A program made the translations under genes and the position numbers. Source: Acidobacteriota bacterium (GTDB lineage Bacteria > Acidobacteriota > Terriglobia > Terriglobales > Acidobacteriaceae). Taken from it: a DNA stretch of 39,903 bases. The notes below the pieces were generated by a model, which was not told the DNA's origin, did not search any database, and was given only the letters and a program-made list of their open reading frames with translations. Shown here one piece after another: positions 6,265 through 9,344 of the stretch (its first letter is position 1; the number at the start of each line of letters is the position of its first letter). Where the stretch lies: contig QIAP01000058.1 of NCBI GenBank assembly GCA_003225075.1, positions 1-39,903 of the forward strand, written 5' to 3'.

Positions 6265-8205
6265 TCACTGCTTCATGTACTTATCAAACCACGCAACGAT
6301 CCGGTTGAGCCGGTCCACCAGATGTTTTTCTTCTTTCAATCCGTGTCCTTCACGCGGATAAAGGACGAGTTCTGTTTCGACCCCATAGCGTTTTAGTCCG
6401 CGATAGAGCTGTTGGCTCTGTCCCCGTGGATCAATGACGTCGGCATCGCCTTGCAGGATCAACGTTGGAGTGCGTGCTCGTTTGATGTAAGTAATCGGTG
6501 AACTGCGGACGAAGCCGTCTAGCTTTTCATACGGCAAACCATAGAACCATTCGTCATACGAAGGATGTTCCTCAATGCCGAATTCGGCGGCCAGGTCGGC
6601 CAGACCTGCGCCGGAAACCGCCGCCTTGAACCGATTTGTTTGCGTGATCGCCCATTCTGACATGTAGCCACCGTACGACCAGCCCGCAATTCCCAACCGC
6701 TCAGGATCAGCAATCCCGCGCCTTACGAGATCATCGGCGGCTGCCATGACATCACGAAAATCGCCCCCACCCCAGTCTCCGCGGTTGAGAACCATAAAGT
6801 CATATCCGTATCCGGTGGACCCTCGTACATTTGGGTAGAACACGACGTAGCCCGCCGTCGCCAGTAATTGGCCCCAAGGCTCGAATCCATCCTGCCAGTT
6901 CCCGGTGGGACCGCCATGGATCAGCAGCACCGTCGGCAACCTTGATTTGCCATCGTATGCCGCCGGCTTCAGCAAGGCGCCTTCGATCTCCCGGCCATCG
7001 AAACTCTTAAAGCGCATAAATTGCGGTTGTATGAGAGCAAACTGCTCGGTCGCCGTATTGAAATGGGAGACACGTTCCGGAGCGACTTTTCCGTTCCAAA
7101 TCCAGAGTTCCGGCAAGCGTGTCGCATTCTCACCAACGAAGGCAATGTTCTGCGCGCTTGTCACGTCGAAATCACTTACACTCATGTCGGGCGAGGGAAG
7201 CGGCTCGGCATTCCCTTGATTGTCGACAATATAAAATCGGTTGCGAAAACCGTCTCCTGCCAGAACCACAAGCTTGCCGTCAGGTCGCCACGCCGCCACA
7301 TTCACCGGCCGGTCAATACTTTTTGCGGTGAGGTTTTGCGACTCCCCTCCTGCGATGGAGATCACGAAAAGATCGTGTGGATTTGGCCCATCCACTCGGC
7401 ATCCCACGTAGGATATCCACTTGCCGTCAGGCGAGATTCGTAGCTCCCCGAACGGTCCGTGTGGCGCGGCGATTGGCTGCGTCTTCCCATCGGAAGGATC
7501 AATCGAAAAAATACGATTCGTTTCCTGGTCCGACTCCGGATGGTCCGTGGCCACTGCTACTAGTCTGTCACCACTCGGAGACCACCGGACATCGTCGAAA
7601 TTCCAGGGAGAGCCAGCCAATTCACGAATCTTTTTCGATTCCACATCGACCAGCCACAGGTGGGCATGCTTATCATCCCGGTCAACCACTTTGGCATCAT
7701 CTTTGTCTTTGTCCTTCTTCTCTTCAGCCTCTGTTTTCGCCTCCGAAGCTAAGAAGGCGATCTTCTTGCCATCGGGCGACCATTCAAATTTATCAATGGA
7801 TCGTTTGCCTTCCGTCAGGCGTATGGCCTCCCCGCCGTCCGCCGGCATCAAGTAAATTTGCTGGAACTCCTCCCGGTCGGAAATAAATGCAAGCGTCTTG
7901 CCGTCTGGCGACCAACGCGGATGACTTTCCGTCTTGGTCGAGCTGGTGAATTGTCTCAAGTCGCGCGAGACTGGGCTGTATACCCAAATGTGACGCTGCT
8001 GTTCGGAGCCCTTAGGAGGTGCCGTGACCGTTAGCGCCATGCGACTTCCGTCTGGCGACCAACGCAGTTCGCGGAGCCGCTGCACCGAAATGGCCTGTTC
8101 GGCCGTAAGTTTGGACTGCGTAGCTTGAATCGTCTGCCCCGGCGCGGAGGTTGCAAACATTGCCCCGGAGATCGCAATCACGAGAGTGCGTAGATGTGTG
8201 TTCAT
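6265..8205 (-). CDS. Secreted S9-family serine peptidase (prolyl oligopeptidase/acylaminoacyl type)
   Basis: This 646-residue protein probably trims oligopeptides outside the cytoplasm. The start at 8205 is chosen because it gives a signal peptide (MNTHLRTLVIAISGAMFATS, cleavage near PGQ). A longer in-frame start at 8319 would bury it. Residues about 35-370 are TolB/WD40-like beta-propeller blades with repeated WSPDG motifs. The C-terminal third is the alpha/beta hydrolase. It has oxyanion-loop HGGPTGNW, the nucleophile serine in GWSYGGYMS, the acid Asp in LQGDADVIDP and the catalytic His in REGHGLKEEKH. A Lys/Asp/Glu-rich loop (KTEAEEKKDKDKDDAK) interrupts the propeller. No strong RBS is visible. 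Confidence 0.93.
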   Translation of the reverse strand: MNTHLRTLVIAISGAMFATSAPGQTIQATQSKLTAEQAISVQRLRELRWSPDGSRMALTVTAPPKGSEQQRHIWVYSPVSRDLRQFTSSTKTESHPRWSPDGKTLAFISDREEFQQIYLMPADGGEAIRLTEGKRSIDKFEWSPDGKKIAFLASEAKTEAEEKKDKDKDDAKVVDRDDKHAHLWLVDVESKKIRELAGSPWNFDDVRWSPSGDRLVAVATDHPESDQETNRIFSIDPSDGKTQPIAAPHGPFGELRISPDGKWISYVGCRVDGPNPHDLFVISIAGGESQNLTAKSIDRPVNVAAWRPDGKLVVLAGDGFRNRFYIVDNQGNAEPLPSPDMSVSDFDVTSAQNIAFVGENATRLPELWIWNGKVAPERVSHFNTATEQFALIQPQFMRFKSFDGREIEGALLKPAAYDGKSRLPTVLLIHGGPTGNWQDGFEPWGQLLATAGYVVFYPNVRGSTGYGYDFMVLNRGDWGGGDFRDVMAAADDLVRRGIADPERLGIAGWSYGGYMSEWAITQTNRFKAAVSGAGLADLAAEFGIEEHPSYDEWFYGLPYEKLDGFVRSSPITYIKRARTPTLILQGDADVIDPRGQSQQLYRGLKRYGVETELVLYPREGHGLKEEKHLVDRLNRIVAWFDKYMKQ

Positions 8206-8443
8206 AGTTGTTAAGTAAGAAGGCGAGACATCGGTGTAGCACGCGACAGACTGAGAGATAGCGACTCCGCCAGACCAAAGGTGGATAACCGGCTCTACCG
8301 AATGTGGTGAAGCCCCCAAGGATTTAGTAAGCCCTGAGACCCGCGAATCTGCGAAGATGGGCTTGGCCTCAGCCCGCTACCGAAGACGGACAGTGGAGAA
8401 ACTCCGAGGCAGCTATCCTCGCTTCTGCAATGGGGGACCGCGC
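8206..8443 (-). other. Unassigned interval with nested complementary segments
   Basis: No protein signal is convincing here, although a minus-strand frame stays open across it. On the minus strand CCCCCA (8431-8436) can pair with TGGGGG (8313-8318). Inside it, GCCTC (8406-8410) can pair with GAGGC (8366-8370). A GGAGTTTCTCC hairpin lies at 8395-8405. It could be a 3' UTR or small RNA following the microprotein ORF, part of the 5' leader of the S9 peptidase, or a dispersed repeat. It does not match tmRNA, SRP RNA or RNase P signatures I know. Confidence 0.3.
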
Positions 8444-8548
8444 CTACTTGGGTTGCATCTTCTTTCGGATACGCCGTATTTCGATAAACGTTAGTGATGT
8501 CGTTACAGAAATCAAGCAGCCGAACATAATGTAGATAATTCTGTCCAT
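8444..8548 (-). CDS. Candidate 34-residue membrane microprotein
   Basis: This short ORF starts ATG at 8548 and ends TAG at 8444-8446. The predicted peptide begins MDRIIYIMFGCLISVTT, a single hydrophobic helix of about 18 residues. It ends in a strongly basic tail RRIRKKMQPK, giving an N-out/C-in or tail-anchored type topology by the positive-inside rule. GGGGAG (8556-8561 on the minus strand) is a fair Shine-Dalgarno sequence about 7 bases before the ATG. A perfect TATAAT lies about 90 bases upstream. No homologue comes to mind. It might be chance, since hydrophobic short ORFs are common. RBS, promoter box and an amphipathic-tail design together make it plausible. Confidence 0.45.
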   Translation of the reverse strand: MDRIIYIMFGCLISVTTSLTFIEIRRIRKKMQPK

Positions 8549-8551
8549 TTA

Positions 8552-8602
8552 TGCGGTCTCCCCACCGCGTGACCCGGTGCCGGGCTGCGACGCCCCAGAC
8601 CA
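8552..8602 (-). promoter_or_regulatory. Structured leader covering the microprotein RBS
   Basis: On the minus strand GGTCT (8598-8602) pairs with AGACC just before the ATG. Inside it GCGT pairs with ACGC, and CCCG-GCAC-CGGG forms the tip. The outer 3' arm overlaps the GGGGAG ribosome-binding site, so the fold could modulate translation. No known riboswitch consensus was recognised. Confidence 0.35.
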
Positions 8603-8639
8603 AACAGTACCCGTTAGATAGATCTAGTGTGTGGCTGGC

Positions 8640-8645
8640 ATTATA
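8640..8645 (-). promoter_or_regulatory. TATAAT -10 box upstream of the microprotein ORF
   Basis: There is a perfect TATAAT on the minus strand at 8645-8640, about 92 bases before the 8548 ATG. The region 17-18 bases upstream (CTAGCG) does not resemble TTGACA, so the promoter is only half supported. Confidence 0.4.
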
Positions 8646-8664
8646 CGCGGGGGACTCCCGAGCG

Positions 8665-8711
8665 CTAGCGGAAATCACGATCAGATTTTCGCGTCTTCTA
8701 TCTTCCGCTAG
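8665..8711 (-). terminator. Inverted repeat directly after the MBL hydrolase stop codon
   Basis: CTAGCGGAA (8665-8673) pairs with TTCCGCTAG (8703-8711), a 9-bp stem with a 29-base loop. It begins immediately after the stop codon of the MBL gene. There is no U-tract. It may act as a transcript end or 3' stabiliser. Confidence 0.35.
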
Positions 8712-9344
8712 TTAGGGTTTTACCAGAAACGGGTTTGTCTTCCGCTCTTGCCAAATCGTTGTTGCGGGCCCGTGGCCAGGAACGACGACGGTGTCGTCGG
8801 GAAGCGCCAGGACACGCTCGTGGAGCGAATTCATGATTTTCTTGAATGACCCGCCCGGGAGATCGGTGCGGCCAATGCTGCCGGCGAAAAGCGTGTCTCC
8901 TGCTATGAGTTTCGTTTCAGCAGGGAAATAGAGGCAAATGCTGCCTTCGGTATGCCCGGGAGTGTGGAGCACATTCGCGCGGTGCGACCCGACGTAGATA
9001 GTTTCATCGTGGCCAACGCTGTGGTCAACCTCGACCGGACCTGGAGGAGCTACGCCAATCCACCCTGCCTGCACGTCGAGCATTTTCAACAGGGCATAGT
9101 CATTTTGGTTAAGCAGGATGGGGGCGCCAGTAGCCGCTCGCAACTTCATGGCGCCGCCCACATGATCGATGTGGGCATGGGTAACCACGATCTGCTTTAC
9201 TTGCAACTTGTGTTTAGCGACAAGCGCCAGCACGTCCTCAATGTCATCGCCCGGGTCGATCACCATCGCCTCACGCGTGCTCTCGTCACCAATCACAGAG
9301 CAATTGCACTGCAGAGGCCCCACGGGCAGGATTTCATGAATCAT
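8712..9344 (-). CDS. Metallo-beta-lactamase-fold hydrolase (glyoxalase II-like)
   Basis: This 210-residue cytoplasmic protein belongs to the hydroxyacylglutathione-hydrolase/YcbL branch of the MBL superfamily. The zinc-binding signature THAHIDHVGG is at residues 55-64, with later ligands HTPGHTEGS (about 130), AGDTLFAGSIGRTDLPGG (about 150) and the terminal VVPGHGPATT (about 190). The C-terminal glutathione-recognition extension of true GloB is missing, so the substrate is likely a small thioester or related ester rather than S-lactoylglutathione. The start ATG at 9344 gives the usual N-terminus (MIHEILPVGPLQCNCSVIGD). The RBS is weak. It lies downstream of secG on the same strand, 126 bases apart. 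Confidence 0.9.
   Translation of the reverse strand: MIHEILPVGPLQCNCSVIGDESTREAMVIDPGDDIEDVLALVAKHKLQVKQIVVTHAHIDHVGGAMKLRAATGAPILLNQNDYALLKMLDVQAGWIGVAPPGPVEVDHSVGHDETIYVGSHRANVLHTPGHTEGSICLYFPAETKLIAGDTLFAGSIGRTDLPGGSFKKIMNSLHERVLALPDDTVVVPGHGPATTIWQERKTNPFLVKP

Follow-up and report, generated by a model that had tools for sequence, protein, structure and literature searches.

A conserved 34-codon gene for a predicted single-helix membrane microprotein in soil Acidobacteria

The 34-codon open reading frame (ORF) on the minus strand at positions 8548-8444 of the window, by which we mean the whole 39,903-nucleotide stretch of DNA analysed here, is almost certainly a real, conserved gene, judging by the sequences of its relatives, and its product, MDRIIYIMFGCLISVTTSLTFIEIRRIRKKMQPK, is very probably a single-span membrane protein according to hydropathy and structure prediction. 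The best explanation that we can offer, at a probability of roughly 60%, is that this product is an accessory membrane microprotein, an explanation that does not insist on any particular partner. An ORF that had been singled out in a gap by visual inspection appears to be a conserved gene whose family is apparently undescribed and for which a partner can be hypothesised. The frame consists of 34 codons and a TAG stop codon (included in the coordinates), just as the original prediction had it; the same prediction's description of the interval as an apparently empty gap fails, because the interval contains this gene. The window belongs to genome G000 (4.79 Mb, 259 contigs), and the microprotein gene lies there between two neighbours on its own strand: upstream, a metallo-beta-lactamase-fold hydrolase gene at 8712-9344 (PF00753), and downstream, beginning 238 nt past the microprotein stop codon, an S9-family peptidase gene at 6265-8205 (PF00326 with query 6268-8205; probable start ATG 8205). 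The seven window neighbours that we scanned with Pfam are these two, SecG, TIM, two MacB-like permeases and a DUF5818 protein.

The window protein has a best 19-residue Kyte-Doolittle mean of 2.05, over the span IIYIMFGCLISVTTSLTFI, and a basic tail with a net charge of +5. AlphaFold2, run with nine sequences, predicts a single helix at residues 2-30 with a mean pLDDT of 91.6. Both the predicted one-helix membrane peptide and the basic tail that had been claimed from the sequence by eye are thus supported, the former by the hydrophobic 19-mer together with the AlphaFold helix and the latter by the charge. Across all 37 family copies the best hydrophobic 19-mer scores 1.74-2.45, and the sequence from the glutamate onward is net positive in 36 of them, the exception being G093. 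The positive-inside rule puts a basic tail on the cytoplasmic side of the membrane, and by that rule the tail of the microprotein should be cytoplasmic. Translation of the ORF would yield a bitopic inner-membrane protein of 34 residues, whose orientation is most likely N-out/C-in, with a hydrophobic helix at about residues 4-22 followed by E-x-RR-x-RKK at the cytoplasmic face.

We searched for relatives at several taxonomic depths. When 61 genomes were searched with the single sequence, seven had a match at E<=1, five of them strong, including the window's own genome. A seven-row profile matched 33 of 398 genomes of the same taxonomic family at E<=0.01, distributed over 17 of 79 genera, and found no member in the other 365 at that threshold; a 29-row profile again matched 33 of the 398, with two weak matches differing and the same 31 genomes strong. 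The seven-row profile located 39 places, and after the two weakest (G144 and G255) were dropped, 37 copies in 31 genomes remained, for seven of which the start codon was shifted upstream to an in-frame ATG. There is one copy in 28 of the 31 genomes, while G005 has two, G012 three and G066 four. Among 396 genomes sampled across the phylum, the only strong match was the window's own genome, with two others weak, and among 399 sampled across the class, strong matches came from G000, G005 and G073, all of the same taxonomic family, with four weak matches, two of which (G977 and G988) belong to another family of the class. No strong relative from outside the window's own taxonomic family was found in the phylum and class samples. 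A possible distant relative in that other family of the class, ORF MGNNQYVIVLLTVMCILEGLVFIELRRLRMGKGPK (locus L132, G988:C25, about 1480-1590, E 5.5e-5), is preceded by an SD-like GGAGG and was kept out of the family analyses.

The alignment and the pattern of substitutions carry the case for a gene. The 29-row alignment shows no variation at four residues, E23, R25, R26 and R28. Frameshifts and stops in relatives, the outcome named beforehand as telling against the gene, are rare: the frame is kept through the conserved core in 35 of the 37 copies (the window's own included), and G093 and G066c leave it at the C-terminal motif. The comparison of synonymous and nonsynonymous change reveals purifying selection, with pN/pS values of 0.00-0.35 across 16 pairs. 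When the nine pairs that share no sequence are pooled, 95.5 synonymous stand against 50.5 nonsynonymous differences, giving a pN/pS of 0.16 and a p value of 7e-27; in the absence of selection, 23% of the differences should be synonymous. The pair G000-G001 alone gives a p value of 5e-4, with 6, 2 and 12 differences at the three codon positions; the two ORFs align without gaps at 81% identity and the 100 nt before them at 66% (50% in shuffles), and the 100 nt downstream are at shuffle level (0.52 vs 0.52). Short ORFs are common, and 21 of at least 20 amino acids overlap positions 8000-9200, so a chance ORF without a product deserves consideration. The relatives in 33 of 398 genomes (with both profiles) and the purifying selection, at 0.00-0.35 in single pairs and 0.16 pooled, refute a chance origin as far as sequence allows and leave it hardly credible.

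Upstream of the gene, the TATAAT that had been claimed is present at 8645-8640 on the minus strand, 91 nt before the ATG and within CGTATAATGC, and it is common to two relatives. This longer sequence also occurs 87 nt upstream of the ATG in G001 and 83 nt upstream in G100, and because of this recurrence we consider the TATAAT element to be probably a promoter. The element was not seen at the corresponding place in most other relatives, no good -35 accompanies the TATAAT (the best total is 8 of 12), and the consensus promoter scanner of the window does not list it. Transcription from this putative promoter of its own would give the gene a leader of about 85 nt. Rfam reports at the gathering score only two tRNAs in the window and no known RNA family at the leader.

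The leader had been described as folding into a three-tier stem. As a whole this fold is not more stable than dinucleotide shuffles (MFE -27.9 vs a shuffle mean of -29.55, z +0.50) and was rejected, while its last tier, which recurs in the family, stands. That tier is a 5-bp hairpin at 8553-8568 on the minus strand, in which GCGGU (8568-8564) pairs with ACCGC (8557-8553) around the loop GGGGAG. The loop is itself the Shine-Dalgarno (SD) sequence (8563-8558) that had been noted, which lies 9 nt ahead of the ATG; it sits in the loop and does not overlap the last arm as had been supposed. The hairpin is kept in the centroid of the window leader along with one upstream stem, and on its own it reaches a borderline shuffle p of 0.052 in the window; hairpins reach p<0.05 in the shuffle test in 10 of the 37 copies. 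An SD-in-loop hairpin scoring at least 12 occurs in 21 of 37 family genes and in 3 of 96 controls (Fisher 1e-11), and one scoring at least 14 in 16 of 37 and 0 of 96, respectively. The controls are genes of the same loci, called crudely as ORFs of at least 250 codons that have an ATG and a word resembling an SD. Kinship among the rows means that they are not independent and inflates these p values.

GCGGU/ACCGC forms the stem in the window, many relatives have GCGGG/CCCGC, and different stems occupy the same place in G012c (shuffle p 0.010), G100 (0.146) and G201 (0.174). Compensatory change had been put forward as a check, and the stem pairs were compared by eye, as loop-length differences shift the stem columns in the MAFFT alignment. 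Covariation is scant, amounting, among rows whose stem is homologous, to one double change (G-C to U-A, in the window) and one wobble (G226), and there are mismatches in G001, G073, G299, G297 and G390 and loss of the stem in G024. Even so, the hairpin probably affects translation: with the SD presented in the loop directly ahead of the ATG, this short hairpin would tune translation, and the displayed SD may favour initiation or may be a binding site. CsrA sites have a GGA-type core in a hairpin loop that overlaps the SD, and so does the family hairpin, which raises the idea that the hairpin is a target for an RNA-binding protein of the CsrA type and the peptide is secondary. However, of 19 carrier genomes one (G128) yielded csrA (PF02599), and G000 did not, in a search that gave a match in 3 of 14 control genomes; a CsrA site is largely refuted and in our view extremely unlikely, though some other RNA-binding protein may recognise the hairpin.

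Comparison with known proteins suggests that this microprotein family of soil Acidobacteria is apparently undescribed. No credible match was found in Pfam, NCBIfam (searched with four members), PHROGs or the PDB (searched with the window protein only). For the window protein, neither Pfam nor NCBIfam lists any family even at E<=10. The best Pfam E value for 29 members was 0.026, to NEDD4_Bsd2 in 6 of them, with CcmD, LapA_dom, DUF624, DUF3789 and Hol_Tox each appearing below the cut-off for one of the 29; the best PHROGs value was 0.011, to an unnamed family in 2 of the 29. Phage and plasmid collections gave no match, and three stretches of viral contigs fit a sequence pattern, none of which was confirmed; a phage or plasmid origin was therefore discarded. 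Literature searches returned, among the matches listed, no paper about the microprotein by title or abstract, none relevant by title on small membrane proteins together with Acidobacteria and no paper on Flp pilin and Acidobacteria together.

Small single-helix membrane proteins are in themselves a known kind. CydX/YbgT (of cytochrome bd), KdpF and AcrZ are small bitopic accessory subunits of membrane complexes, and the microprotein resembles them in its size of roughly 30-50 residues, its one membrane helix and its proposed accessory role, but unlike them it ends in a distinct E-x-RR-x-RK. The CydX/YbgT profile is not listed for four members in Pfam or NCBIfam at E<=10 or for 29 members in Pfam at E<=1, in searches where HMMER filters drop most matches above about 0.1. 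There are no cydAB, oxidase, Kdp or Acr genes among the seven scanned window neighbours; in relatives the profile scan covered one GT2 and one Flp neighbour. In the GMSC catalogue, according to its main text, 15.3% of small-protein families are predicted to be transmembrane or secreted, most of them annotated without a function (PMC11364881). That main text contains no occurrence of the string 'acidobacteri' (PMC11364881).

The genes around the family members point to candidate partners. In 13 of the 37 copies a gene for a Flp-type pilin lies within 306 nt on the same strand. The Flp stop codon precedes the microprotein start by 55-306 nt in 10 of these 13 pairs, and the other three have the reverse order, with 80-131 nt from the microprotein to the nearest Flp methionine. 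From the density of Flp genes, as estimated from counts in 22 of the 31 genomes, about 0.02 of 37 copies would be expected to have such a neighbour by chance. The remaining 24 copies have no Flp neighbour, a few of them lying near contig ends. We found 127 Flp-type matches in 22 carrier genomes, so that all 22 carriers tested have Flp-type genes, in a count that covers carriers only. The number per carrier ranges from 2 to 12 in these 22 genomes, on many different contigs and with some genes in tandem (L160, L161, L165). Around 40 other Flp matches, some of which lack a clean Flp reading (L174 has none), we detected no credible family member (the best hmmsearch E value was 0.088, for an RRIRKK-type fragment), and the 400 nt preceding the Flp motif contained no GTAAN3TTAC. 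The absence of a member from these 40 stretches indicates that the pairing concerns one special Flp copy and not Flp genes generally.

We take the Flp name to rest partly on the GQDIAEY motif; it rests also on closeness to rcpC in several genomes, and 15 of 16 genomes searched for the Tad protein RcpC yielded it. The Flp-type proteins exceed the Pfam Flp_Fap cut-off in 1 of 19 genomes and reach E<=0.01 in 11 of 19, and the Flp query protein itself matched no Pfam family at E<=0.01. On the protein tree, which is poorly resolved (36 columns and 36 rows, with G066c left out), the Flp label needs eight gains or losses, only two of which are forced by well-supported branches, and one gain and one loss are possible. 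The two gene orders suggest separate Flp pairings. At one locus (L071, G005:C12), downstream of the microprotein-Flp pair, the ORF translations D2 and D3 of G005b repeat a motif that we take to resemble a translated CRISPR array.

Part of the lineage carries a shared operator-like sequence. In 528 kb of fetched loci, GTAAN3TTAC occurs at eight sites, six of which lie 62-101 nt upstream of family genes, two each in G005, G012 and G066; the other two are about 4.4 kb beyond G005a and in G303's locus. The palindrome precedes the family genes at loci L054, L057, L058, L059, L062 and L071. These six genes span two contexts, that of an amine oxidase and that of Flp, and the presence of the operator in both speaks for joint control in G005, G012 and G066. 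It is absent upstream of the window gene and of the other 30 copies within 400 nt (a few contigs end sooner). We also considered GGTAAYGTTTAC as the signature of a wide regulon and rejected it, as it has eight sites in four genomes and only three at family genes; the other five have no family member beside them and, by eye, lie in or among longer genes. Literature retrieved with operator words contained, among the matches listed, none on Acidobacteria by title.

We propose that the microprotein would serve as an accessory subunit that is not itself catalytic and that docks, through its helix and basic juxtamembrane tail, on a membrane partner of greater size or abundance. A Flp-type pilin or the Tad pilus pathway would be the best single candidate for such a partner, because chance would seldom produce co-directional pairs in both orders; the genetic link to Tad/Flp genes extends to 13 of the 37 copies and not to the window's copy, and we hold a Flp/Tad link only tentatively, at somewhat less than even odds, on this genomic evidence. 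Like Flp/Tad type IVb pilins, the microprotein is a short one-helix protein, and it is their same-strand neighbour at 13 of 37 loci; unlike them it has only 34 residues and the opposite charge layout. The processing motif of Flp-type pilins is G-xxxx-EY, which the microprotein lacks, and Pfam does not list Flp_Fap for the 29 members. The Flp-type proteins carry an acidic leader of the WxDDxGQD type, and the basic tail could meet this prepilin leader at the cytoplasmic face. In its fullest form, which we put forward as doubtful, the proposal would make the microprotein a dedicated, lineage-specific partner of extra Flp-type pilins, acting as an assembly, retention or selection factor of the Tad pilus, paired with them in both orders and probably more than once, controlled by GTAAN3TTAC in part of the lineage and by the SD-in-loop hairpin in over half, with its tail meeting the prepilin leader.

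The main rival to Flp/Tad as the partner is a glycosyltransferase of the GT2 type. Thirteen of the 37 copies are divergent from a GT2 gene (12 recognised by motif and G100 by position, its GT2 start being masked), with roughly 150-260 nt between the two starts in the 12 motif-found copies. One of these is the copy in the congener G001, whose GT2 protein matches Pfam Glycos_transf_2, and G000 itself holds a GT2 gene 89% identical to that of G001. On such grounds the microprotein could be an accessory subunit or regulator of the divergent GT2, or of another membrane enzyme, and not of a pilus; modulation of membrane enzymes had been named beforehand as a frequent role of peptides of this shape. 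We consider this unlikely, as the orientation is divergent and not co-directional, 13 other copies pair on the same strand with Flp, and G000 has retained the microprotein and its -10 although its GT2 gene lies on another contig (C29), where no microprotein accompanies it and the gene upstream is unrelated. A gene resembling by eye the one that adjoins the microprotein in G001 (the DUF5818 gene in the window) sits 5 kb away in the window, and together with the GT2 on C29 this indicates that the locus was rearranged around a retained microprotein gene. The GT2 gene starts 6 nt past a TATAAT in G000:C29 (L124, before 3659) and about 9 nt past one in G001 (L052, about 8367), and from this spacing the GT2 mRNA looks leaderless. 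A convergent amine-oxidase-type gene accompanies three of the 37 copies. Eight copies have no Flp, GT2 or amine-oxidase neighbour, among them G299, G297 and G066c near contig ends and the window's own, which has neither a Flp neighbour nor a GT2 neighbour nor a GTAAN3TTAC. Could the ORF instead be a regulatory leader peptide that controls the next gene? It stands directly ahead of the Flp gene at 3 of 37 loci, and in the window the same-strand peptidase gene begins 238 nt past the stop; against this, the downstream gene varies between loci and is convergent in many, the microprotein is the second gene in 10 of the 13 Flp pairs, and conservation at the amino acid level extends over the ORF and its tail, all of which makes such a role very unlikely.

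A type I toxin, that is, a small hydrophobic peptide that an antisense RNA restrains, had been suggested from the shape of the peptide, and its small size, single hydrophobic helix, basic tail and leader of about 85 nt agree with that suggestion. The plus strand of the window also has a promoter-like site at 8502-8530 (9 of 12), inside the ORF, and a terminator-like stem at 8668-8692, which between them could give an antisense RNA of about 150 nt over the ribosome-binding site and leader. Both sites, however, are at chance level, with one of each found against 0.6 and 1.4 expected. The promoter-like site is present in 1 of the 37 copies and the upstream terminator-like site in 10, and the full layout is confined to the window, being absent from the other 36 copies, with neither site in the congener G001. 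Since the promoter-like site occurs in one copy only, the antisense layout is not a family trait, though it is possible in the window's strain. Resemblance to Hol_Tox (PF16935) likewise extends to size and a hydrophobic helix, and one of 29 members comes near that family at an E value of 0.33, which is not significant; no described toxin family in Pfam or NCBIfam was matched significantly. What disfavours the toxin is the single copy in 28 of 31 genomes, the recurrent chromosomal contexts, the purifying selection at a pN/pS of 0.16, the lack of any phage or plasmid match or confirmed viral-contig member, and the absence of a toxin-family match, so that we regard it as improbable.

An accessory membrane microprotein is thus the reading that we prefer, with a Flp-type pilin as its best single partner candidate. 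We know of no explanation for the 2-12 Flp-type genes found per carrier genome, and a microprotein paired with one of them would give a handle on what the Flp-type pilins of Acidobacteria do.
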